NCBI RefSeq assembly: GCF_000511385.1
Contig: NC_023137.1
Location: 3,169,001 to 3,233,000, forward strand
Reading direction: 5' to 3'
Length of the DNA: 64,000 nucleotides
From: Phaeobacter gallaeciensis DSM 26640
GTDB taxonomy: Bacteria > Pseudomonadota > Alphaproteobacteria > Rhodobacterales > Rhodobacteraceae
Shown here: in pieces, positions 1,881-24,178 of the stretch
Position numbering within the stretch: the stretch's first letter is position 1
Layout: each line of letters opens with the position of its first letter
The notes under the pieces: model-generated
Seen by the model: the letters and a program-made list of their open reading frames with translations, nothing else
Told to the model about the DNA's origin: nothing
Databases searched by the model: none
Made by a program: the position numbers and the translations under genes

Positions 1881-2660
1881 TCAGACCGCGCGTTCCACCA
1901 TCATCTGCTTGATGTGCGAAATCGCCTTGGCCGGGTTCAGACCCTTGGGGCAGGTTTTTGCGCAGTTCATGATCGTGTGGCAACGGTAGAGCTTAAAGGG
2001 GTCTTCCAGCTCATCCAGACGTTCCGGTGTCGCCTCATCCCTGCTGTCGATGATCCAACGGTACGCATGCAGCAGCGCGGCCGGCCCAAGATAGCGATCA
2101 CCGTTCCACCAATAGCTGGGGCAGGACGTCGAACAGGAGGCACACATCACACATTCATAAAGACCGTCGAGTTTCTTGCGATCCTCAATAGACTGTTTCC
2201 ACTCTTTTGCAGGGCGGTTGGTCTTGGTTTCCAGCCACGGCATGATTGAGGCATGCTGAGCATAGAAGTGCGTCAAATCGGGGATCAGATCCTTTACCAC
2301 CGGCATATGCGGCAGCGGATAGACCTTCACGTCACCCTTGATTTCATCCAGCCCGTAAATACAGGCTAGCGTGTTGATACCGTCGATGTTCATCGCGCAA
2401 GAGCCGCAGATCCCTTCGCGACAAGAGCGGCGGAATGTCAGGGTCGGATCGATCTCATTCTTGATCTTGATGAGCGCGTCCAGAACCATCGGACCGCATT
2501 TGTCCATGTCGACAAAATAGGTATCCACCTGCGGGTTCTTGCCGTCGTCCGGGTTCCAGCGATAAATGCTGAATTTGCGCACATTGGTTGCGCCTTCGGG
2601 CTTGGGCCAGGTTTTACCCGTGGTGATCTTGGAATTTTTCGGAAGTGCGAATTCGACCAT
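1881..2660 (-). CDS. sdhB: Succinate dehydrogenase iron-sulfur subunit
   Basis: SdhB passes electrons from the flavin of SdhA to ubiquinone in the membrane anchor (complex II, inner side of the cytoplasmic membrane). All three cluster motifs are intact: [2Fe-2S] at Cys80, Cys85, Cys88, Cys100; [4Fe-4S] at Cys170, Cys173, Cys176 with Cys180; [3Fe-4S] region with Cys227, Cys233, Cys237. Length 259 aa fits the family. AAGGAG sits 8 nt before the ATG. It is the last gene of the sdh operon but is separated from sdhA by a sulfotransferase-like gene and a further 150-bp gap, which is unusual compared with the compact sdhCDAB of enterobacteria. Confidence 0.98.
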
Positions 2661-2810: not shown

Positions 2811-3725
2811 TCAGAACAGCCCCCCTGCCGTAAAAGGGGTGTGTTCCGCCAGCCGCGAAAGCCGAGCCGCATCATCGGGGTAATGCCGCACCAAAGCTGC
2901 CAGCAGTGCGTCATCACGAGCCGCGAGGTGCAAAATCGCCTGATATTCTGCATCTCCCGCCATCTGTCGGCAGCGTTGATCCGTCTTCAGATCAAAATCG
3001 GCGTCGCCCTGATCCTTGTCGAAGGACGACCCACCGCCGTAGGTTTGCATCTTGCCGAGCGTATTGTCCGCAACAGGCAGGCCCAAACGGTCCAGCAGAT
3101 CCGTCCGATAGTTGGCACTGCGCATCCAACGGTCGTAGTCAACCACCACCAGTGCAAGCTCATCCGCATGTGAGGCCAGCTCCAGCATGCGCCGATAGCT
3201 GTCTATTGCCCGCAGCACCACGGCGTTACGCTGAACCAGCGAAAAAGCGGGATTACTCTGCAGCTTTTTCAACAAAGAGGCCGACCAATTCAGGAAACCA
3301 CGCAGTAGCAGGATATCCCCGCTAAACAGCCTCTCATCCAGATCGCCCGAGACAGGACGATCCAGACTGTAATCCGACGGAACAGTGTCTTCGTAAGAAA
3401 TCAACAGCAGACCACCGGAGGCCATTGACGCCCCAAGCGCATGCAGATCACGCGCCTCTGATCGCGACAGGCCCACGGTATTACGCTCTATCCCTTGATG
3501 ATGCGACAGCGGCAGTCGGGCCGGTTTGCAGTTGTTGAAGAACAGAGCCTGCTGCCTCGGCGCGTTGCGTTGCAACCAATTGGCAATCGCATGATTGCCG
3601 GACCGACGCATCCCGAACAGGCGAAGTGCGACGTCAGGCTGCCAGCCAAGACCCGGCCAACCGCCGGGTTGTTCTGCAGCAGCGGCCGGAGACGGTATTG
3701 AAACGTCTTGCTCAATTGCCATCAT
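2811..3725 (-). CDS. Sulfotransferase-like P-loop protein inside the sdh operon
   Basis: About 304 aa, located between sdhA and sdhB on the same strand. The N-terminal motif FGMRRSGNHAIANWL (residues 37-51) resembles the 5'-phosphosulfate-binding loop of PAPS-dependent sulfotransferases (RSGNHAI in place of RSGTTWL). No signal peptide or membrane segment is seen, so it is probably cytoplasmic. A TTG at 3737 is possible but ATG 3725 with GGGGG five bases upstream is preferred. Substrate is unknown. Its position suggests co-transcription with complex II, but nothing in the sequence ties it to succinate oxidation; a sulfotransferase-fold protein with another role is equally possible. Confidence 0.7.
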   Translation of the reverse strand: MMAIEQDVSIPSPAAAAEQPGGWPGLGWQPDVALRLFGMRRSGNHAIANWLQRNAPRQQALFFNNCKPARLPLSHHQGIERNTVGLSRSEARDLHALGASMASGGLLLISYEDTVPSDYSLDRPVSGDLDERLFSGDILLLRGFLNWSASLLKKLQSNPAFSLVQRNAVVLRAIDSYRRMLELASHADELALVVVDYDRWMRSANYRTDLLDRLGLPVADNTLGKMQTYGGGSSFDKDQGDADFDLKTDQRCRQMAGDAEYQAILHLAARDDALLAALVRHYPDDAARLSRLAEHTPFTAGGLF

Positions 3726-3809
3726 AGCAGCCCCCAACCATGTACACTCAGCTCCCGCGAGGGGGCGCTGAGTGTCATGTGATATGCGGGAACTGCGCGC
3801 ATCACGGTC

Positions 3810-5615
3810 TTAGAACGTCCGTGCCTTGGGGGCGATTTTCGCCTCGCTGATGCCGCCTTCGGCCTCAGTGGTGAGAGGATCAACAATCACCGGACGGTAA
3901 GTCAGATCCACCTTGTTGCCATCGACGCGGCTCACGGTATGGACACGCCATTTCTCATCGTCCCGGCTGGTGAAATCCTCATGCGCATGGGCACCACGGC
4001 TTTCCTGACGTGCCTCGGCCCCGACAATTGTCGCCAGGGCGTTTGGCATCAGGTTGGTCAGCTCAAGCGTTTCCATCAGGTCAGAGTTCCAGACCAGCGA
4101 CCGGTCCGTCACAGCCAGATCGTCGATCTTTGCTGCGATGGCGGTCATCTTGGTCACACCTTCCGCCATGGTCTCCGATGTGCGGAACACGGCCGCATCG
4201 CTCTGCATGGTGCGCTGCATTTCCAGACGCAGATCCGCGGTTGGAATGCCGCCCTTGGCATAGCGCAGACCGTCAAACCGGTCGAAGGCTTTGTCCACCT
4301 GCGCCTGATTGAGAACCGGGTTCGGCGCATCAGCATCCACCACCTTGCCCGCACGGATTGCCGCAGCTCGGCCAAAGACCACAAGGTCGATGAGCGAGTT
4401 GGACCCCAATCGGTTGGCCCCGTGAACTGAGGCACAGCCCGCCTCGCCCACGGCCATCAGGCCCGGCACCACAGCGGTCGGATCCTCGGCTGTCGGGTTC
4501 AGCACCTCACCCCAGTAGTTGGTCGGTATACCGCCCATGTTGTAGTGAACCGTTGGCAGAACCGGAATCGGTTCCTTGGTCACATCCACGCCGGCAAAGA
4601 TCTTCGCGCTTTCGGAAATCCCCGGCAAGCGTTCGGCCAGCGCTTCGGCTGGCAGATGGCTGAGGTTGAGGTGAATGTGATCACCATGTTCACCCACACC
4701 GCGGCCTTCGCGGATCTCCATGGTCATCGAACGCGAAACATAGTCACGCGGCGCCAGATCCTTGTACTGGGGCGCATAGCGCTCCATGAACCGTTCGCCT
4801 TCGGAATTGGTCAAATACCCGCCTTCGCCCCGCGCGCCCTCGGTGATCAGACAGCCGGAGCCATAGATCCCTGTGGGGTGGAATTGCACGAATTCCATAT
4901 CCTGCAGCGCAAGGCCTGCCCGCGCCACCATGCCACCGCCGTCGCCAGTACAGGTATGCGCAGAAGTTGCGGAGAAATAGGCACGGCCGTAACCGCCAGT
5001 TGCCAGCACCACCATCTTCGCGTTGAAGACATGCATGGTGCCATCGTCCAGCTTCCAGCAAACAACACCCTGACACTGCCCATCCTCGGACATGATCAGG
5101 TCGATAGCAAAATACTCGACATAGAACTCAGCATTGTTCTTCAGCGACTGACCATAGAGCGTATGCAGGATCGCGTGGCCGGTCCGGTCAGCAGCGGCAC
5201 AGGTACGCTGCACTGCAGGGCCTTCGCCGAACTCGGTGGTATGCCCACCGAAGGGACGCTGGTAGATCTTGCCTTCCTCGGTCCGCGAGAATGGCACACC
5301 GTAATGCTCGAGCTCGTAAACCGCCTTGGGCGCTTCACGCGCGAGGTACTCCATCGCGTCAGTATCGCCGAGCCAGTCAGACCCTTTGACCGTGTCATAC
5401 ATATGCCACTGCCAGTGGTCAGGACCCATGTTGGACAAGGACGCCGCAATGCCGCCCTGGGCCGCCACGGTATGCGAGCGGGTCGGGAAGACCTTCGTCA
5501 CGCAAGCCGTGCGCAGCCCCTGCTCTGCCATGCCGAGGGTGGCGCGCAGGCCGGCACCACCGGCGCCAACCACGACCACGTCATAATCATGTGTTTCGTA
5601 TTCGTAAGCAGCCAT
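3810..5615 (-). CDS. sdhA: Succinate dehydrogenase flavoprotein subunit
   Basis: SdhA oxidises succinate to fumarate in the TCA cycle using covalently bound FAD. The dinucleotide motif GAGGAG is at residues 17-22 and the FAD-linking histidine is in [10 protein letters not shown] (His48). The substrate region HPTGIYG, the catalytic-arginine region and the [11 protein letters not shown] motif are all present. 601 aa is normal for the family. The ATG follows CGAGG by 6 nt; the gap to sdhD is 15 bp, so the two are co-transcribed. Confidence 0.98.
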
Positions 5616-5630
5616 TGAAAACCTCGGGAT

Positions 5631-6002
5631 TTACAGCGCCAGGCGGATCAGCGCATAGGCGCTGACCGCGGCCACGGCATAAGACAGGCAGGTGACCAGA
5701 ATGATCGTCAGACGACCGGCAAAGCCATGCACATAGTCCTCGATCATGATCTGCGCACCGGATTTAAAGTGCATCATGCCGACCCAGATGGTCAGCAGAG
5801 CGACAAGTGCAGGAAACGGGCGAGCGTAGTAGGCGGTGATCTCTTCATAAGATCCGCCCAGCGCCGAGCCAAAAGTGAACACGAACAAAGGCACCAGGAT
5901 AAGCAGCCCGATAGAGCTGACCTGCATTGACCAATGATGTGCCGTACCGGATTTCGCAGCACCCATGCCCACGGCACGCTTGCGATCTGTCAAATAACGC
6001 AT
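5631..6002 (-). CDS. sdhD: Succinate dehydrogenase membrane anchor subunit
   Basis: A 123-residue protein with three hydrophobic helices (about 27-50, 60-78, 95-120) preceded by a short cytoplasmic N-terminus. With SdhC it holds cytochrome b and the ubiquinone site of complex II. HFKSGAQIMIEDYVH in the second half is the conserved histidine/aspartate stretch of this family. AAGGAG lies 8 nt before the ATG, and it is 18 bp downstream of sdhC. Confidence 0.95.
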   Translation of the reverse strand: MRYLTDRKRAVGMGAAKSGTAHHWSMQVSSIGLLILVPLFVFTFGSALGGSYEEITAYYARPFPALVALLTIWVGMMHFKSGAQIMIEDYVHGFAGRLTIILVTCLSYAVAAVSAYALIRLAL

Positions 6003-6020: not shown

Positions 6021-6404
6021 TCAGACGAGAACAAGGGTGAGGGCGGTCAGCACAACCGACCCGATAATGACGAACCAACCCAGTTTCTGCGCAGGCTCCA
6101 GATCCAACATTTTGCCGTTGTCCCAGATCAGGTGACGCACGCCAGCCAGCGTATGGTACCAAAGGCCCAGCACCGACAGGCTCATCACGATGTCGCCGAA
6201 CCAGCTGGTCATTACAGTATTGGCGGTGCGGAAGTAGTCTTCAGAGGTTGCCGCCGCCAGGAACCACCAGGCGATCAGTAACGCGCTCACGATAAGGGCA
6301 TTGCCCGTAATCCGCGTCAGGATCGAGGTGATCGAAGTGATCTGCGGGCGATAAACCTGCAAATGTGGCGAAAGCGGGCGGTTGCCCCGATTTACATCGG
6401 CCAT
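6021..6404 (-). CDS. sdhC: Succinate dehydrogenase cytochrome b556 subunit
   Basis: First gene of the sdh operon, 127 aa. It carries the family signature RPLSPHLQVYRPQITSITS (residues 9-27), whose Ser/Arg residues border the quinone pocket, three transmembrane helices, and the histidine of YHTLAGVRHLIWD, the usual heme b ligand region. AAGGAG is 6 nt before the ATG. The 190-bp region upstream contains a paired palindromic operator shared with the suc operon. Confidence 0.96.
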   Translation of the reverse strand: MADVNRGNRPLSPHLQVYRPQITSITSILTRITGNALIVSALLIAWWFLAAATSEDYFRTANTVMTSWFGDIVMSLSVLGLWYHTLAGVRHLIWDNGKMLDLEPAQKLGWFVIIGSVVLTALTLVLV

Positions 6405-6517
6405 GTTGGCTCCTTTCCGGTTAGCTGACGACGTTTTAGCGGTTTTTTACGTCCTGTCACGCAAACGAGCGGTAAAAATGCGCAGTTATTTTTAGGAATG
6501 CCGCGAAAACAACAATA

Positions 6518-6548
6518 TGTGATCACACGCTTCCGGTAAGTGATCACA
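6518..6548 (-). promoter_or_regulatory. Paired TGATCA palindromes upstream of sdhC
   Basis: Two palindromes, TGTGATCACA at 6518-6527 and AGTGATCACA at 6539-6548, have centres 21 bp apart, i.e. two helical turns. The near edge is 114 bp from the sdhC start codon. The same arrangement, with matching flanks (CACACG inside, ACAAAAT outside), occurs upstream of sucC. I infer a double operator for a dimeric regulator acting on both TCA operons. The regulator is not identified. Confidence 0.75.
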
Positions 6549-6596
6549 AAATAGGATATACGAGAATCCTTACAGAATCACATGGTGTTCGCGAAT

Positions 6597-7286
6597 TTAT
6601 GGGATCGTCGGGAGAAAGCTGCTCAATCCCGCGTTCTGCTGCGCCACTTCACGTAACAGCTTTTTACGGATCGCTTCCGGATAGTCCTCAAACCCTGCTG
6701 CCGTCTGCACAAAGGCGCCCGCTCCATGAATGACCTGCTCAAAGAAATAGGCCGTCAGATCCGGCTCGCTCTCCTCAATGGCCAAGGCATTCACCGTGAC
6801 GCCAGCGGCGCTGAGCGCGTCTCGGATGGCGGTTGGCTCCACCCCCTCATTGGACGGCCCGTCGCCAGAAACATCAATCACGCGGCGGCGGCATCCGGGC
6901 ACGGTTTGAAACTGCTTGATGGCCAGCTGTAGCGCCTCTCCTATGCCAGTTGCATAGTTTCGCCAGGGACGCGGCGCCGCCGCGATATCAGCCGCCAGCT
7001 GGTCCAAGGCTTGGAAGTCCGCAGCACGTCGCCAGCTGAGCGTGATCTCCTGGCGACCACTGCCAGACCACTGCATCAATGCTACCCGCGCCTGCGCCCG
7101 CACCAAGGCCTCCGCCACGACCCCATCCTGTAACGCGGCGGCCAGACCTTCCATCTGTGTGCGGTATTCTTCAACATCGACGCTGCCAGAGACATCCACC
7201 GCTAGTACCAATGCCAGATCACAGGCGCGCGCCGGTATTGGCACCTGGATGACAAGCATAAAAACCAACAGTCGAAAAATCCGCAT
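6597..7286 (-). CDS. DUF1194-type secreted von Willebrand factor A protein
   Basis: 229 aa with a cleavable signal peptide (residues 1-21, cut near ARA/CD) and a VWA fold. The metal-ion-dependent adhesion site is intact: DVSGS at 31-35, a later Thr, and SGDGPSNEG supplying the third Asp. This length and motif set match the DUF1194 family of Rhodobacteraceae, whose function is not known; metal-dependent protein binding outside the cytoplasm is the inferred role. No clear Shine-Dalgarno sequence was found before the ATG. It stands alone between the sdh promoter and the next gene. Confidence 0.85.
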   Translation of the reverse strand: MRIFRLLVFMLVIQVPIPARACDLALVLAVDVSGSVDVEEYRTQMEGLAAALQDGVVAEALVRAQARVALMQWSGSGRQEITLSWRRAADFQALDQLAADIAAAPRPWRNYATGIGEALQLAIKQFQTVPGCRRRVIDVSGDGPSNEGVEPTAIRDALSAAGVTVNALAIEESEPDLTAYFFEQVIHGAGAFVQTAAGFEDYPEAIRKKLLREVAQQNAGLSSFLPTIP

Positions 7287-14010: not shown

Positions 14011-14347
14011 ATCGGTGCTCCAGATCTCCTTTGCAGTCGGCATTCCACTAATTTCCAGCCTATCATATGGCTCCGGACCAAGCGGCACCGCCGCACCTCA
14101 ATCAGTTTCGCCTTAACCAGATAGATGCCGCATCAGTGTAACGTAGTGTCGGAGTTGATCAAAACCGCTCTTATCGAATCAACTTCGTTCACCTCTTGTA
14201 AATTTGTGATCACACGTCGGAAATGCGTGATCACAAAATCAATAAATCTTCGGGATTTCTTTACCAGCTGTAAGAAAACCCTTTAAACATTGGCGCTATG
14301 ACGGCGTATTAGATCAAGATAATTGCAGCCAGACGGGACAGTTTCAG
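14011..14347 (+). other. sucC promoter region, 337 bp
   Basis: Intergenic between the divergent ATPase gene and sucC. It contains the paired operator described separately and an AT-rich segment (14236-14330) that should hold the sucC promoter. I could not place the -35 and -10 boxes with confidence and see no gene here. Confidence 0.6.
14205..14236 (+). promoter_or_regulatory. Paired TGATCA palindromes upstream of sucC
   Basis: TGTGATCACA (14205-14214) and CGTGATCACA (14226-14235) have centres 21 bp apart, and the pair ends 112 bp before the sucC ATG. The inner and outer flanks (CACACG, ACAAAAT) match those of the pair upstream of sdhC. Probably the binding site of one shared regulator of the two TCA operons. 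Confidence 0.75.
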
Positions 14348-15541
14348 ATGAACATCCACGAATATCAGGCCAAGGCCCTCCTCCGCAGCTACGGCGCGCC
14401 GGTTTCGGACGGGCGTGTGGTGCTCAAGGCAGAAGATGCCAAAACCGCAGCAGGTGAGCTGGACGGCCCGCTCTGGGTGGTCAAAGCTCAGATCCACGCT
14501 GGTGGTCGCGGCAAAGGCTCCTTCAAGGAGGCTGACGCGGGCGAAAAAGGCGGCGTGCGTCTGACCAAATCGGTTGAAGAAGCGGCTGACGAAGCCAAGA
14601 AAATGCTGGGCCGCACCCTTGTGACCCATCAGACCGGCCCGGCCGGTAAGCAGGTGAACCGCATTTACATCGAGGCAGGCTCCGGCATTCAGACCGAACT
14701 CTACCTCGCGCTGCTGGTGGATCGTCAAACCTCGCGCATCTCCTTCGTCTGCTCCACCGAGGGCGGCATGGACATCGAGGAAGTCGCCGAAGCCACCCCC
14801 GAGAAAATCCTGTCCTTCTCCGTTGATCCGGCGACTGGCTATCAGGCGTTCCACGGCCGCCGCATCGCCTTCTCGCTCGGTCTTGAAGGCGCACAGGTCA
14901 AGCAATGCGTCAAGCTGATGGGCCAACTCTACAAGGCATTTGTCGAAAAAGACATGGAGATGCTGGAAATCAACCCGCTGATCGTCTCCGACAGTGGCGA
15001 CCTGAAGGTGCTGGACGCCAAGGTCGGCTTCGACGGCAACGCGGTCTACCGCCACGCTGACATTTCCGAACTGCGCGACACCACCGAGGAAGACCCCAAG
15101 GAGCTGGAAGCCTCCAAATACGATCTGAACTACATCGCTCTGGACGGTGAGATCGGCTGCATGGTGAACGGCGCGGGTCTGGCGATGGCCACCATGGACA
15201 TCATCAAACTTTATGGTGCGGAGCCTGCAAACTTCCTCGATGTGGGCGGCGGCGCCACCAAGGAGAAAGTGACCGAGGCGTTCAAGATCATCACCTCTGA
15301 CCCGAACGTCAAAGGCATCCTGGTCAACATCTTCGGCGGCATCATGCGCTGCGACGTCATCGCCGAGGGCGTGGTCGCCGCGGTGAAAGAGGTCGGCCTG
15401 AAGGTACCGCTGGTTGTCCGCCTCGAAGGCACCAACGTGGAAGCCGGCAAAGACATCATCAACACCTCCGGTCTTGATGTCATCGCAGCCGACAACCTGT
15501 CCGACGGCGCCGAGAAAATCGTGAAAGCGGTGAAAGGATAA
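14348..15541 (+). CDS. sucC: Succinyl-CoA synthetase beta subunit
   Basis: 397 aa. With SucD it converts succinyl-CoA, ADP/GDP and phosphate to succinate and ATP/GTP. The ATP-grasp N-terminal half starts [35 protein letters not shown] and the C-terminal [10 protein letters not shown] are family motifs. Only a weak Shine-Dalgarno (GGGACAG) precedes the ATG. It is the first gene of the suc operon and shows the strong codon bias of an abundant protein. Confidence 0.98.
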
Positions 15542-15922: not shown

Positions 15923-16807
15923 ATGGCAGTCCTCATCGACGAAAACACCAAAGTCATCTGTCAGGGCTTCACCGGCTCGCAGGGCACCTTCCACTCCGAA
16001 CAGGCCATCGCCTATGGCACCAAGATGGTCGGCGGCGTGACCCCCGGCAAAGGTGGCCAGACCCACCTGAACCTGCCGGTCTTCAACTCCGTGCACGAAG
16101 CCAAGCATGTGACCGAGGCGAATGCCTCTGTGATCTACGTGCCGCCCCCCTTCGCGGCTGACTCCATCCTTGAGGCCATCGACGCCGAGATGGAGCTGAT
16201 TGTCTGCATCACCGAGGGCATCCCGGTTCTGGACATGATGAAAGTGAAGCGCGCGCTGGAAGACAGCAAATCGCGTCTGATCGGCCCGAACTGCCCCGGC
16301 GTGATCACGCCTGATGCCTGCAAGATAGGCATTATGCCTGGCCACATCCACAAACGTGGCTCGGTTGGCGTTGTCTCCCGCTCGGGCACCCTGACCTATG
16401 AGGCGGTGAAGCAAACCGCAGACATCGGTCTGGGCCAGTCCACCGCTGTCGGCATCGGCGGCGACCCGATCAAGGGCACCGAGCACATCGACGTGCTGGA
16501 CATGTTCCTGAACGATGATGAAACCCAGTCGATCATCATGATCGGTGAAATCGGTGGCTCCGCTGAAGAAGAAGCCGCAGAATTCATCGCCGAGCAGAAG
16601 AAAAAAGGCCGCTGGAAGCCCATCGCTGGCTTTATCGCAGGCCGCACTGCCCCTCCGGGCCGTCGCATGGGTCACGCTGGCGCGATTGTCGCAGGCGGCA
16701 AAGGTGGTGCCGAAGACAAGATCGAGGCGATGAAATCCGCTGGTATCGTCGTCGCCGACAGCCCCGCCACACTGGGCGAGGCGGTTCTGAAAGCGATCGG
16801 CAAGTAA
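15923..16807 (+). CDS. sucD: Succinyl-CoA synthetase alpha subunit
   Basis: 294 aa. Carries the CoA-binding Rossmann domain ([13 protein letters not shown]), the phosphohistidine loop in [17 protein letters not shown] (His in GHAGA) and [16 protein letters not shown] lies 9 nt before the ATG. The stop codon overlaps the next start (TAATG). Confidence 0.98.
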
Positions 16808-17331
16808 TGCGATTGGCGCGCGCAGCATATACCGAACTGACGAGATCTTTTGATTTCGCAAATCGTACTGCGCGCGCAGACTATTTCAGCTTTGTAGTCG
16901 CCAGCATGTGCACAATGAGCCTGGTAATTTTCGCCTGCCATCACGTGCTGCCCTCAGACATTGCTCTGCAAGCAACGCTACTCACCGTCTTGTTCTTTTA
17001 CTTTCCCGTAACGTCGGCCGGAGTACGACGATTGCATGATGTAGGGGAAAGCGGCCTCCTTATGTTGGAGCCGCTAAAGCCGTTCCTTGCTCTTGGAGTA
17101 CTGGCGGTTTTGGTCTGGCTTTGCGTCTCTGGAACGGTAATCGGCGGTTTTGTAGGAATATTCTCCGCGCTTTACTTTGGGACTGCCATAACAATCGTCG
17201 CGTCCATCGCAGCTTTGGTTGCTCTCTTCCTGACCCTTGCTTCTTTCTCCACAACGCTGGGCTTACTTTTCCTGCCCTCCCAAACTGGCCCTAACAAATA
17301 CGGTCCCAACCCGCACGAGGCACCCAAATGA
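16807..17331 (+). CDS. DUF805 family membrane protein between sucD and sucA
   Basis: 174 aa with four hydrophobic helices and DUF805 landmarks: an N-terminal SFDFANRTARADYFSF, the conserved RRLHDVGESG at about 77-86, and a C-terminal PSQTGPNKYGPNP. The family is of unknown function and sits in the inner membrane. It overlaps sucD by one base (TAATG) and sucA by four (ATGA), so it is translationally coupled on both sides. Codon use lacks the bias of its neighbours. In most genomes sucD and sucA have no such insert. Confidence 0.88.
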   Translation: MRLARAAYTELTRSFDFANRTARADYFSFVVASMCTMSLVIFACHHVLPSDIALQATLLTVLFFYFPVTSAGVRRLHDVGESGLLMLEPLKPFLALGVLAVLVWLCVSGTVIGGFVGIFSALYFGTAITIVASIAALVALFLTLASFSTTLGLLFLPSQTGPNKYGPNPHEAPK

Positions 17332-20285
17332 CCGACCAATCGCCCAACGACCTCTTCCACGCCTCCTCTTTCATGCAGGGGCACAATGCGGAGTATCTTG
17401 AGCAGCTCTATGCCCAATACGCCAATGACCCCAATGCGGTGGATGCCGCCTGGGCTGAGTTCTTCCGGCAAATGGGTGACGCAGAACTTGATGTGAAGGC
17501 GGAGGCCGCCGGCCCCTCCTGGGCGCGCGGCGACTGGCCTCCTGCCCCCAATGATGATCTAACAGGCGCGCTGACAGGCGAGTGGCCCGCTCCAGCCGAA
17601 ACCAAGGGTGCTGGTAAGAAGATCAAGGAACAGGCTGCCGCCAAGGGCGTCGAAGTCACCGATGACCAAGTGCAGCGCGCTGTACTGGATTCGATCCGGG
17701 CGCTGATGCTGATCCGGGCCTACCGGATCCGTGGCCATCTGGCCGCCAATCTCGACCCCCTCGGTATGCGCGAGGAAGCCCAGCACCCCGAGCTGGATCC
17801 GCGCACCTATGGCTTCACCGAAGCGGACATGGACCGCCCGATCTTCATCGACAATGTTCTGGGGCTTCAGGTCGCCTCGATGCGTCAGATCGTCAGCATC
17901 GTGAAGCGGACCTACTGTGGCACCTTTGCGCTACAGTACATGCATATCTCCGATCCCGAACAGGCCAGCTGGCTGAAGGAGCGGATTGAAGGCTACGACA
18001 AGGAAATCCGCTTCACCCGTGAAGGGCGCAAGGCAATCCTCAACAAAATGGTTGAGGCAGAGGGTTTCGAGAAGTTCCTGCACGTCAAATACATGGGCAC
18101 AAAGCGCTTTGGTCTGGACGGTGGCGAGAGCCTCATTCCGGCAATGGAGCAGATCATCAAGCGCGGTGGCGCGCTGGGGATCCGCGATATCGTCATCGGC
18201 ATGCCGCACCGCGGTCGCCTGTCGGTGCTCGCCAATGTGATGCAGAAGCCCTACAAGGCCATTTTCAACGAATTCCAGGGCGGCAGCTTTAAGCCTGAAG
18301 ATGTCGATGGGTCAGGCGATGTGAAATATCACCTTGGCGCGTCCTCGGATCGCGAATTTGACGGCAACTCCGTTCACTTGTCGCTGACCGCGAACCCCTC
18401 CCACCTCGAGGCGGTGAACCCGGTGGTGCTGGGCAAGGTCCGCGCCAAACAGGATCAGCTCAAGGACAGCGAGCGCAGCAAGGTGCTGCCGATCCTGCTG
18501 CACGGTGATGCAGCCTTTGCCGGTCAGGGTGTTGTGGCTGAGTGTTTTGCACTCTCCGGCCTGCGCGGCCACAAGGCCGGCGGCACGATGCATATCGTGG
18601 TGAACAACCAAATCGGTTTCACCACCGCACCGCATTTCTCGCGCTCCTCGCCCTACCCCACCGACAACGCGCTGGTGGTCGAAGCGCCGATCTTCCACGT
18701 GAACGGCGACGATCCGGAGGCTGTGGTCCACGCGGCCAAGGTCGCCACTGAATTCCGCCAGAAGTTCCACAAGGATGTCGTTCTCGATATCTTCTGCTAC
18801 CGCCGGTTTGGCCATAACGAGGGCGACGAGCCCATGTTTACCAACCCGCTGATGTACAAGAAAATTAAAGGCCACAAAACAACCCTGTCGCTTTATACTG
18901 AGCGTCTGGTCAAGGATGGCTTGATTCCCGAGGGTGAGATTGAGGATATGAAAGCCTCGTTCCAAGCCCGATTGAATGAGGAATTCGAAGCCGGCAAGAA
19001 CTTCAAGCCGAACAAGGCTGACTGGCTGGATGGCCGCTGGTCGCACCTCGACAAGAAGGACACCGATTATCAGCGCGGCCAGACCTCTGTGTCGCCCGAG
19101 ACGTTCAAGGACGTGGGCACGGCTCTCAGCCGAGTGCCCGACGGTTTCCCCGTCCACAAGACCATTGGTCGTTTCCTGGACGCGCGCGCCAAGATGGTGG
19201 ACAGTGGCGAGGGGATTGACTGGGCAACCGGTGAGGCGCTGGCCTTTGGTTCTCTTCTGACCGAAGGTTATCCGGTGCGCCTGTCCGGGCAGGATGCCAC
19301 CCGTGGTACATTCTCGCAGCGTCATTCCGGCATCGTCAATCAGAACACCGAGGAACGTTACTATCCGCTCAACAATATCCGCAGCGGGCAGTCCCACTAT
19401 GAGGTGATCGACTCGGCCCTCAGCGAATATGCTGTGCTCGGCTTCGAGTATGGCTATTCACTTGCCGAACCCAATGCACTGACGCTCTGGGAAGCGCAGT
19501 TCGGCGACTTCGCCAACGGTGCCCAGATCATGTTCGACCAGTTCATCTCCTCTGGCGAAAGCAAATGGTTGCGGATGTCCGGCCTGGTCTGCCTGCTACC
19601 GCACGGATTTGAGGGCCAGGGGCCGGAGCACTCCTCCGCCCGCCTTGAACGCTTCCTGCAGATGTGTGGTCAGGACAACTGGATCGTGGCCAACTGTACG
19701 ACGCCTGCTAACTATTTCCACATTCTCCGCCGCCAACTGCACCGCACCTTCCGCAAGCCGCTGATTCTGGTCACGCCGAAATCGCTGCTGCGTCACAAAT
19801 TGGCGGTGTCCAAGACAGAAGAGTTCACCACCGGATCGTCCTTCCACCGGGTTCTGTGGGATGATGCGCAGCACGGCAATTCTGACACCAAACTTGTCGC
19901 CGATGACAAGATTAAGCGCGTCGTACTCTGCTCAGGCAAAGTCTACTACGACCTCCTCGAAGAACGCGACGTCCGTGGGCTCGACGATGTCTACCTGATG
20001 CGGATCGAACAATATTATCCGTTCCCTGCCATCTCCCTTGTGAAGGAGCTAGAGCGCTTCAAAGGTGCTGAGATGGTCTGGTGCCAGGAGGAACCCAAAA
20101 ATCAGGGCGCCTGGAGCTTCATCGAACCGAATATCGAATGGGTGCTGACGCGCATCGGCGCCAAGCACAGCCGCCCGACCTATGTCGGTCGCGCCACCTC
20201 GGCTTCGCCCGCAACGGGCCTGGCCAGCGAACACAAAGCCCAACAAGCTGCGCTCGTGAACGAAGCGCTGAGCATCGAAGGATAA
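17328..20285 (+). CDS. sucA: 2-Oxoglutarate dehydrogenase E1 component
   Basis: 985 aa, the thiamine-diphosphate-dependent first component of the oxoglutarate dehydrogenase complex. Seen: the N-terminal FLxGxNAxYLExLYxxY-type SubB-binding tract (HNAEYLEQLYAQY), IGMPHRGRLSVLANV, the GDAAFAGQGVVAE ThDP motif and RRFGHNEGDEP. Its ATG overlaps the DUF805 stop by 4 bp. Length is normal for alphaproteobacteria. Confidence 0.98.
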   Translation: MTDQSPNDLFHASSFMQGHNAEYLEQLYAQYANDPNAVDAAWAEFFRQMGDAELDVKAEAAGPSWARGDWPPAPNDDLTGALTGEWPAPAETKGAGKKIKEQAAAKGVEVTDDQVQRAVLDSIRALMLIRAYRIRGHLAANLDPLGMREEAQHPELDPRTYGFTEADMDRPIFIDNVLGLQVASMRQIVSIVKRTYCGTFALQYMHISDPEQASWLKERIEGYDKEIRFTREGRKAILNKMVEAEGFEKFLHVKYMGTKRFGLDGGESLIPAMEQIIKRGGALGIRDIVIGMPHRGRLSVLANVMQKPYKAIFNEFQGGSFKPEDVDGSGDVKYHLGASSDREFDGNSVHLSLTANPSHLEAVNPVVLGKVRAKQDQLKDSERSKVLPILLHGDAAFAGQGVVAECFALSGLRGHKAGGTMHIVVNNQIGFTTAPHFSRSSPYPTDNALVVEAPIFHVNGDDPEAVVHAAKVATEFRQKFHKDVVLDIFCYRRFGHNEGDEPMFTNPLMYKKIKGHKTTLSLYTERLVKDGLIPEGEIEDMKASFQARLNEEFEAGKNFKPNKADWLDGRWSHLDKKDTDYQRGQTSVSPETFKDVGTALSRVPDGFPVHKTIGRFLDARAKMVDSGEGIDWATGEALAFGSLLTEGYPVRLSGQDATRGTFSQRHSGIVNQNTEERYYPLNNIRSGQSHYEVIDSALSEYAVLGFEYGYSLAEPNALTLWEAQFGDFANGAQIMFDQFISSGESKWLRMSGLVCLLPHGFEGQGPEHSSARLERFLQMCGQDNWIVANCTTPANYFHILRRQLHRTFRKPLILVTPKSLLRHKLAVSKTEEFTTGSSFHRVLWDDAQHGNSDTKLVADDKIKRVVLCSGKVYYDLLEERDVRGLDDVYLMRIEQYYPFPAISLVKELERFKGAEMVWCQEEPKNQGAWSFIEPNIEWVLTRIGAKHSRPTYVGRATSASPATGLASEHKAQQAALVNEALSIEG

Positions 20286-20291
20286 CACCCC

Positions 20292-21839
20292 ATGACCACC
20301 GAAGTTCGCGTGCCCACCCTGGGCGAATCCGTGACCGAAGCCACCGTCGCCACCTGGTTCAAGAAGCCGGGTGACGCGGTCGCCGCAGATGAAATGCTCT
20401 GCGAGCTGGAAACAGACAAAGTCACCGTTGAGGTCCCGGCTCCTGCCGCCGGCACCCTGGGTGAGATCGTCGCCGCCGAGGGCGAAACCGTCGGCGTCGA
20501 TGCGCTGCTTGCGACAATCGCAGAAGGCGGCTCTGCCGCAGCGGCCGCCCCTGCAGCTTCCGCACCAGCCGCCACGAAGGAAACAACAGAAGGTGATGCA
20601 GGCGCAGCCACCGATGTGATGGTTCCCACCCTGGGCGAATCTGTGAGTGAAGCCACCGTTTCCACCTGGTTCAAGAAGGTCGGCGACAGCGTCGCGCAGG
20701 ACGAAATGCTCTGCGAGCTGGAAACGGATAAGGTTTCAGTCGAAGTTCCAGCCCCGACTGCCGGTATCCTGACCGAGATCACCGCTGAAGAAGGCAGCAC
20801 CGTCGACGCGACTGCCAAACTGGGTGTGATCTCAGGTGGCGAAGCAGGCGCCGTAACGCCTACGCCCACCAAAGGGGAAACCGCAGGTGGGGCGCAATAT
20901 ACCACGCCCCCCGCTGGCCAGGGCGGCCCCGCCAAGGATATCGCAAATGCACCTTCCGCCGAGAAGGCAATGGCAGAGGCCGGCCTGTCCGCCGATCAGG
21001 TGCAAGGCAGCGGCCGCGATGGCCGCATCATGAAAGACGACGTTGCCCGTGCCGTGGCCGCTGCCGCAGCTGCGCCTGCCAGCACCTCGACCCCAGCAGC
21101 GGCGGCACCTGTGCGCGCGCCGGTTGCTGCGGACGACGCCGCCCGTGAAGAGCGCGTGAAAATGACACGCCTGCGCCAGACCATCGCCAAGCGTCTGAAG
21201 GACAGTCAGAACACCGCTGCCATGCTCACCACCTACAACGAGGTCGATATGACCGAGGTGATGGCCCTGCGCAACGAGTACAAGGATCTGTTCCTGAAGA
21301 AACACGGCGTGAAACTGGGCTTCATGTCGTTCTTCACCAAGGCCTGCTGCCACGCCCTGAACGAGGTCCCTGAGGTCAACGCCGAGATCGACGGCACCGA
21401 CATCGTCTACAAGAACTTCGTCCACATGGGCATCGCCGCTGGCACGCCCACGGGTCTGGTCGTTCCGGTCATCCGCGACGCCGATGCAATGTCGTTCGCG
21501 GACATCGAGAAGGCGATCGCTGAGAAGGGCGCCCGCGCCCGTGACGGCAAGCTGTCGATGGCAGAGATGCAGGGCGGTACCTTCACCATCTCCAACGGCG
21601 GCGTCTATGGCTCGCTGATGTCTTCGCCCATCCTGAACCCGCCGCAATCCGGCATCCTGGGCATGCACAAGATCCAGGACCGCCCGATGGCGATCAACGG
21701 CAAGGTTGAGATCCGCCCGATGATGTATCTGGCACTCTCCTATGACCACCGCATCGTCGACGGCAAAGGCGCCGTCACCTTCCTCGTGCGCGTCAAAGAA
21801 GCACTGGAAGATCCTCGTCGGTTGCTGATGGATCTGTAA
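20292..21839 (+). CDS. sucB: Dihydrolipoyllysine succinyltransferase (E2) with two lipoyl domains
   Basis: 515 aa. Two lipoyl domains in tandem, with lipoyl-lysines in ETDKVTVE (Lys43) and ETDKVSVE (Lys147), joined by Ala-rich linkers; then an E3-binding domain (about 214-250) and the catalytic domain ending in [16 protein letters not shown]. It transfers succinyl groups to CoA. E. coli SucB has one lipoyl domain, so this is the longer alphaproteobacterial type. AAGGA lies 9 nt before the ATG, 6 bp after sucA. Confidence 0.97.
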
Positions 21840-22780: not shown

Positions 22781-24178
22781 ATGGCATCCTATGACGTCAT
22801 CGTAATCGGCGCCGGCCCCGGTGGCTATGTAAGCGCCATCCGCTGCGCCCAGCTCGGCCTCAAGACCGCGGTGGTCGAAGGCCGCGAAACCCTCGGCGGC
22901 ACCTGCCTCAACGTCGGCTGTATCCCGTCAAAGGCATTGCTGCACTCGACCCATCTGCTGCATGAAGCGGAACATAACTTCGCCCATATGGGTCTGAAGG
23001 GCAAAAGTCCCTCGGTCGACTGGTCCCAGATGAAATCCTATAAGGAAGAGGTCATCGGCCAGAACACTGGCGGTATCGAATTCCTGTTCAAGAAGAACAA
23101 GATTGACTGGATCAAGGGCTGGGCCTCCATTCCCGAGGCTGGAAAGGTCAAGGTGGGCGACGACAGCCATGAGGCCAAGAACATCGTGATTGCCTCCGGC
23201 TCCGTTCCCTCCTCGCTGCCAGGCGTTGAGGTCGACAATGACAAGGGGATTGTGGTGGACAGCACCGGCGCGCTGGACCTGCCGAAGATCCCCAAGAAAA
23301 TGGTTGTGATCGGTGCTGGTGTGATCGGCCTGGAACTGGGGTCAGTCTATGCACGTCTGGGGTCTGACGTGACCGTGGTTGAATATATGGACGCCGTCTG
23401 TCCCGGCATGGACAAAGATGTTCAGCGCAGCTTCAAGCGGATCCTCGAAAAGCAGGGCCTGACCTTCATCATGGGGGCTGCGGTACAGGGGGTTGAAACG
23501 TCCAAAACCAAGGCGAAGGTGAAGTATCAGCCTAAAAAGGGTGGTGACGAAGAGGTGATCGATGCCGATGTGGTGCTCGTTGCCACAGGTCGCAAACCCT
23601 ATGCCGATGGTCTTGGGCTGGACGCACTTGGCATCAAGATGACCGAGCGCGGCCAGATCGCAACCGATGCTCATTGGGCCACCAATGTCAAAGGCGTTTA
23701 CGCCATCGGCGACGTCATCGAAGGTCCCATGCTGGCGCATAAGGCCGAAGACGAAGGCATGGCCGTTGCCGAGGTGATTGCGGGCAAACATGGCCATGTG
23801 AACTACGGCGTCATTCCCGGCGTGGTCTACACCACGCCCGAGGTGGCAACCGTTGGCCAGACCGAAGATGCGCTGAAAGCCGAAGGTCGCAAAATTAAGA
23901 CTGGCAAGTTCATGTTCATGGGCAACGCCCGCGCCAAGGCCGTGCATCAGGCCGAAGGTGGTTTTGTGAAACTCATCGCGGACAAGGAAACCGACCGTAT
24001 CCTGGGTGCAGCCATTATTGGTCCGGGCGCTGGCGATCTGATCCATGAAATCTGCGTCGCAATGGAGTTCGGCGCCTCTGCCGAGGATCTAGCCCTCACC
24101 TGTCACGCGCATCCGACCTATTCAGAGGCGGTCCGCGAGGCGGCCCTGGCCTGCGGCGACGGCCCGATCCACAGCTGA
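22781..24178 (+). CDS. lpdA: Dihydrolipoyl dehydrogenase (E3)
   Basis: 465 aa. Reoxidises the lipoyl groups of SucB and passes electrons to NAD. Seen: FAD motif [10 protein letters not shown], redox disulfide [13 protein letters not shown] (Cys42, Cys47), second dinucleotide motif [12 protein letters not shown] and the C-terminal catalytic [16 protein letters not shown] is 8 nt before the ATG. Completes the 2-oxoglutarate dehydrogenase set. Confidence 0.98.

Follow-up and report, generated by a model that had tools for sequence, protein, structure and literature searches.

In passages of PMC6365646, GTGATCAC is a reported motif of AkgR, a transcriptional activator of Rhodobacter sphaeroides, and passages of PMC4344238 predict sucCD, sdh and akgDH as targets of the GntR-family protein RSP_0981 of the same species, i.e. 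the genes for succinyl-CoA synthetase, for succinate dehydrogenase and for alpha-ketoglutarate dehydrogenase. The present analysis concerns Phaeobacter gallaeciensis DSM 26640, of which a stretch of 64,000 nucleotides is hereafter called the window. RSP_0981 and AkgR are taken here to be the same protein.

Paired palindromes in front of sdhC and sucC

The window carries sdhCDAB on the minus strand (sdhC start at 6404) and sucC, sucD, sucA, sucB and lpd on the plus strand (sucC start at 14348), sucAB-lpd being located downstream of sucCD on the same strand. The genes and palindromes are as follows:

1881..2660, minus strand: sdhB (NCBIfam NF004616)
3810..5615, minus strand: sdhA (NCBIfam TIGR01816)
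5631..6002, minus strand: sdhD (NCBIfam TIGR02968)
6021..6404, minus strand: sdhC, first gene of the sdh operon (Pfam Sdh_cyt, NCBIfam TIGR02970)
6519..6526, no strand: GTGATCAC, sdh pair, arm nearer sdhC (sequence match)
6540..6547, no strand: GTGATCAC, sdh pair, second arm, 21 bp away (sequence match)
14206..14213, no strand: GTGATCAC, suc pair, first arm (sequence match)
14227..14234, no strand: GTGATCAC, suc pair, second arm, nearer sucC, 21 bp away (sequence match)
14348..15541, plus strand: sucC, first gene of the suc operon (NCBIfam NF001913)
15923..16807, plus strand: sucD (NCBIfam NF004230)
17328..20285, plus strand: sucA, 2-oxoglutarate dehydrogenase E1 (NCBIfam NF006914)
20292..21839, plus strand: putative sucB (named by translation and place alone)
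22781..24178, plus strand: putative lpd (named by translation and place alone)

Between sdhB and sdhA, the sdh operon also contains a 308-aa reading frame (2811-3737, minus strand) with no Pfam match. The sdh control region is bounded upstream by the end of a DUF1194/VWA protein (6597-7286, minus strand), so that positions 6405-6596 hold the whole sdh promoter region.

Both sdhC and sucC are preceded in the window sequence by GTGATCAC-N13-GTGATCAC, with centres 21 bp apart at either place; GTGATCAC is the full perfect palindrome, present in four perfect copies over the two operons. The sdh pair (6519-6547) lies 114 bases upstream of the sdhC start codon and the suc pair (14206-14234) 113 bases upstream of that of sucC, their TGATCA cores occupying 6520-6525 and 6541-6546, and 14207-14212 and 14228-14233, respectively. 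On the plus strand, the flanks are identical at both pairs, with TGTGATCACACG to the left of the pair and GTGATCACAAAAT to its right. The first-pass annotation had described two palindromes upstream of sdhC with this distance between centres, in agreement with the coordinates 6519-6526 and 6540-6547, and flanks repeated at sucC, which were indeed found at both places. As the two operons are transcribed in opposite directions (sdh to the left, suc to the right), the common flanks stand in opposite senses relative to them, which is immaterial because the element is symmetric. A third TGATCA is present upstream of the suc pair (14153-14166, plus strand), within AGTTGATCAAAACC, a sequence that fits the loose published CceR motif.

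In the whole genome (4,540,155 bases), a search allowing 10-16 bases between the arms and a second one allowing 4-34 bases each gave exactly two GTGATCAC pairs, those at sdh and suc, while about 0.008 pairs are expected by chance at the 21-bp spacing. As for single sites, GTGATCAC occurs in 195 copies in the genome and TGATCA is over-represented in the window (38 seen vs. 19.4 expected); being this frequent, they are weak evidence and were dropped as too numerous.

Distribution of the pair among the Rhodobacteraceae

The family sample comprised 149 genomes from 148 genera, 133 of which hold at least one pair (4-34 bases between the arms): two pairs in 92 genomes, one in 22, more than two in 19 and none in 16. 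Fifty loci around pairs or regulators were inspected, some of which overlap so that instances repeat, and these gave 61 instances of the pair, of which 56 have a spacing of 21 bp and two of 20 bp, with one each at 18, 27 and 31 bp. All 58 pairs at 20-21 bp precede sucC (34), sdhC (23) or sucA (1), and the three at 18, 27 and 31 bp stand before none of the tested genes. The sucA case is that of G136 (L131, 8754-8782), in which no sucC was detected next to sucA and sdhC has no pair.

When each upstream region is counted once, mostly in loci picked for holding a pair, 35 of 35 sucC regions are paired (32 at 21 bp and 3 at 20 bp), as are 23 of 26 sdhC regions, all at 21 bp; the remaining three belong to L149, whose pair has one mismatch, and to G090 and G136, with no pair. 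Among the named loci fetched via the regulator, the exact pair is present in all eight readable sucC regions (eight more were too short) and in three of four sdhC regions, the fourth being that of L149. The 13-base insert is AT-rich (62% vs. 37% in the loci, for 54 distinct inserts), and an A stands next to the arm on its outer side in 124 of 138 flanks. The paired site is thus real, specific and conserved. The scan of related genomes and their downstream genes, which the first-pass annotation had suggested, places the 20-21 bp pairs of the 50 loci at TCA operons, and neither of the outcomes it had named as contrary, i.e. a pair no commoner at TCA genes than elsewhere or one lacking in relatives, was observed.

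In the class at large, a pair with 4-34 bases between the arms was found in 23 of 289 genomes; 19 of these genomes lie outside the family, and the one locus inspected in each showed no sdh or suc genes. Two loci of the class outside the family, L260 and L278, carry GTGATCAC pairs with spacings of 21 and 24 bp in the vicinity of genes 30-35% like AkgR, which are perhaps self-regulated cousins of it.

Concerning the promoters, consensus scans revealed no sigma-70-like promoter behind the sdh or the suc pair, and profiles anchored on the second arm displayed an A/T-rich stretch right after this arm, with no clear hexamer pair. This would fit activator-dependent promoters and proves nothing.

The candidate GntR/FCD regulator, its gene and the alternatives

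The Phaeobacter genome has 25 GntR matches, among which the putative AkgR orthologue, of 222 aa and with both a GntR and an FCD domain, is encoded outside the window (G000:C1:353132-353797). In flanks of about 1.5 kb to either side, two of the 25 GntR loci contain GTGATCAC: L006, where it lies inside the frame, and L022, where it precedes the likely start codon by 9 bases; the latter is the gene of the putative AkgR orthologue itself. Moreover, the 11-mer TTGTGATCACA is found genome-wide only at this gene and at sucC. The orthologue is 77-78% identical to the protein of G051, a putative R. sphaeroides genome, which is encoded one reading frame behind sdhB and is 94% identical to a Cereibacter ovatus protein; in many relatives, the orthologue adjoins lpd or sdhB. 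Many relatives also have a second homologue of AkgR (about 40% identity), and in Phaeobacter L023 (G000:C1:3564174-3564353) is a GntR/FCD-like protein resembling AkgR.

Among regions of close orthologues, 31 of 33 have a single GTGATCAC upstream of the regulator gene, and in 27 of these 31 sites it stands 18 bases after the start of TTGAC, i.e. over the spacer and the -10 region of a likely core promoter. Judging from this placement, we infer that the AkgR orthologue may repress its own gene in Phaeobacter. Such autorepression would not be general, since among 79 named relatives nearer to Cereibacter just 16 have the own-promoter site, and it is absent in G051, which has both pairs and no site just before the regulator gene.

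With E<=1e-50 as the threshold for an orthologue, the presence of the pair and that of the regulator agree in 143 of the 149 genomes, with both in 130 and neither in 13 (Fisher p = 2e-13, uncorrected for kinship). An orthologue without a pair was found in three genomes: G040, which has one-mismatch pairs at both operons, and G122 and G147, which are 76% and 73% complete, SdhA being found in neither and SucC being missing or only a 51% match. Three others, G019, G096 and G114 (91, 77 and 100% complete, respectively, the last in 320 contigs), have the pair and no detected orthologue, and a second query yielded in them only matches of 38% identity or less. These three genomes count against AkgR as the reader of the pair, and so do the AT-rich G090 and G136, where the orthologue is present and sdhC has no pair.

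Twelve of the 13 genomes with neither are readable at both operons, where the best pair has 3-7 mismatches out of 16. On a tree of 42 SucC proteins (12 from genomes without the pair, the other 30 including G040 and the pair-only G019, G096 and G114), the pair label changes about six times (bootstrap range 5-7, with three changes forced by well-supported branches), and kinship alone is therefore insufficient to account for the link between pair and regulator. In the class scan, in which at most ten candidates per genome were scored, the orthologue (E<=1e-50) was found in four of 289 genomes, all Rhodobacteraceae. A control GntR/FCD protein, taken from L012, was found in 7 of the 149 genomes and is weak as a control because of this rarity.

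The first-pass annotation had suggested that the site could belong to an undescribed regulator, and this point is not supported: in passages of the two papers cited above, the same motif is reported for AkgR and the same operons are predicted for RSP_0981. A regulator other than AkgR and still to be described could be imagined in view of the three of 149 genomes with a pair and no detected orthologue, and we hold it to be very unlikely against the published motif and targets, the way in which the presence of the pair tracks the GntR orthologue, and the site carried by the regulator gene. That one dedicated regulator serves both sdh and suc, as had also been proposed, is supported; the only two pairs in the genome are there, and the pair is conserved at TCA operons.

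Slighter still is the likelihood that the pair is read by a paralogue, i.e. another GntR/FCD protein related to AkgR, acting alone or in competition with it. The second homologue of about 40% identity is widespread, Phaeobacter included, and the pair-only G019 and G114 have only such homologues; against this, in 45 genomes that have both pair and orthologue no second match reaches E<=1e-20, so that a paralogue is not needed, and G054, whose only homologue is of 39% identity, is without the pair.

A CRP site reads TGTGA-N6-TCACA and an FNR site TTGAT-N4-ATCAA, whereas the arms of each palindrome abut with neither the 6-bp nor the 4-bp spacer; both were rejected, as the first-pass annotation had it. 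Chance, or any known unrelated element of the CRP, FNR or CceR type, has next to no probability: the over-representation of TGATCA in the window and the prediction of CceR for sdh and mdh in R. sphaeroides (in passages of PMC4344238) are outweighed by the two pairs seen where 0.008 were expected, by conservation and spacing, and by the published CceR motif, which is absent from 6405-6600 and in the suc region matches only at 14104 and 14153, beyond the limits of the pair. A CceR site at the pair was likewise rejected, [AGT]GTT-N6-8-AAC[ACT] having no match within either pair.

Proposed operator designs and comparison with described regulators

The paired site is almost certainly the AkgR operator; in Rhodobacter, this regulator has been described before for the operons concerned. 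Three traits of its regulon are present in Phaeobacter, namely GTGATCAC in the control regions, the pair before sdhC and sucC (with sucAB-lpd behind sucCD), and a GntR-family protein, a putative orthologue, encoded in the genome. Taken as a whole, the putative reading in which the pair is the operator of the AkgR orthologue, with two dimers and activation at sdh and suc and probable autorepression, is one in which we have high confidence. Each GTGATCAC would be the site of one AkgR dimer, and two dimers, separated by two helical turns and facing the same side of the DNA, would bind cooperatively ahead of the sdh and suc promoters and, on a metabolic signal, activate both operons in Phaeobacter. 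The single site over the regulator's own promoter would, in turn, probably serve self-repression in Phaeobacter.

More tentatively, AkgR may use two operator designs, a rigid AT-bridged pair for cooperative activation and a single site at its own gene, placed over the -35/-10 spacer, for repression in part of the family, and TCA control may have been rewired repeatedly, the pair and the regulator having been lost or gained together several times within one family.

AkgR with the motif GTGATCAC, and the predicted control of sucCD, sdh and akgDH by RSP_0981, are already described in passages of the papers cited. Concerning the 21-bp pairing, passages of PMC6365646, PMC4344238, PMC4419725, PMC11323563, PMC5507952 and PMC7471390 make no statement, and among the literature matches listed for TGTGATCACA and GTGATCAC no title deals with this system. 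The rigid two-turn pairing and the single own-promoter site in near relatives are possibly new, and may be known too. Three features stay of interest: the rigid spacing of the pair, the distinct site that part of the family has at the regulator gene, and the fact that pair and regulator repeatedly occur, or are missing, together. A name for the regulator is obtained without a new pull-down; GTGATCAC-N13-GTGATCAC provides a sharp signature to mark AkgR targets in unannotated Rhodobacteraceae genomes, and the genomes without both pair and regulator offer natural test cases for the replacement of a TCA-cycle activator.

Of the described systems, CceR of the alphaproteobacteria is likewise predicted for sdh and mdh in R. 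sphaeroides, in passages of PMC4344238, but belongs to another protein family (LacI) and has another motif, to which the pair does not conform. The GntR regulators of the PS417_07240 type, from Pseudomonas and Burkholderia, have the same proposed site GTGATCAC, and the regulator described there is 32% identical to AkgR; according to passages of PMC6365646, they are linked to a deoxyribonate catabolic cluster with one conserved palindrome, whereas here TCA operons are concerned. The AkgR (RSP_0981) regulon of R. sphaeroides, in passages of the two papers, has the same palindrome as the Phaeobacter pairs and the same predicted targets, sucCD, sdh and akgDH, and a GntR/FCD protein that is a putative orthologue of its regulator is encoded in the Phaeobacter genome. 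The two differ at the regulator gene, which in Phaeobacter has a single site and lies far from sdh and suc, whereas that of the putative R. sphaeroides genome G051 is without such a site and lies near sdhB.
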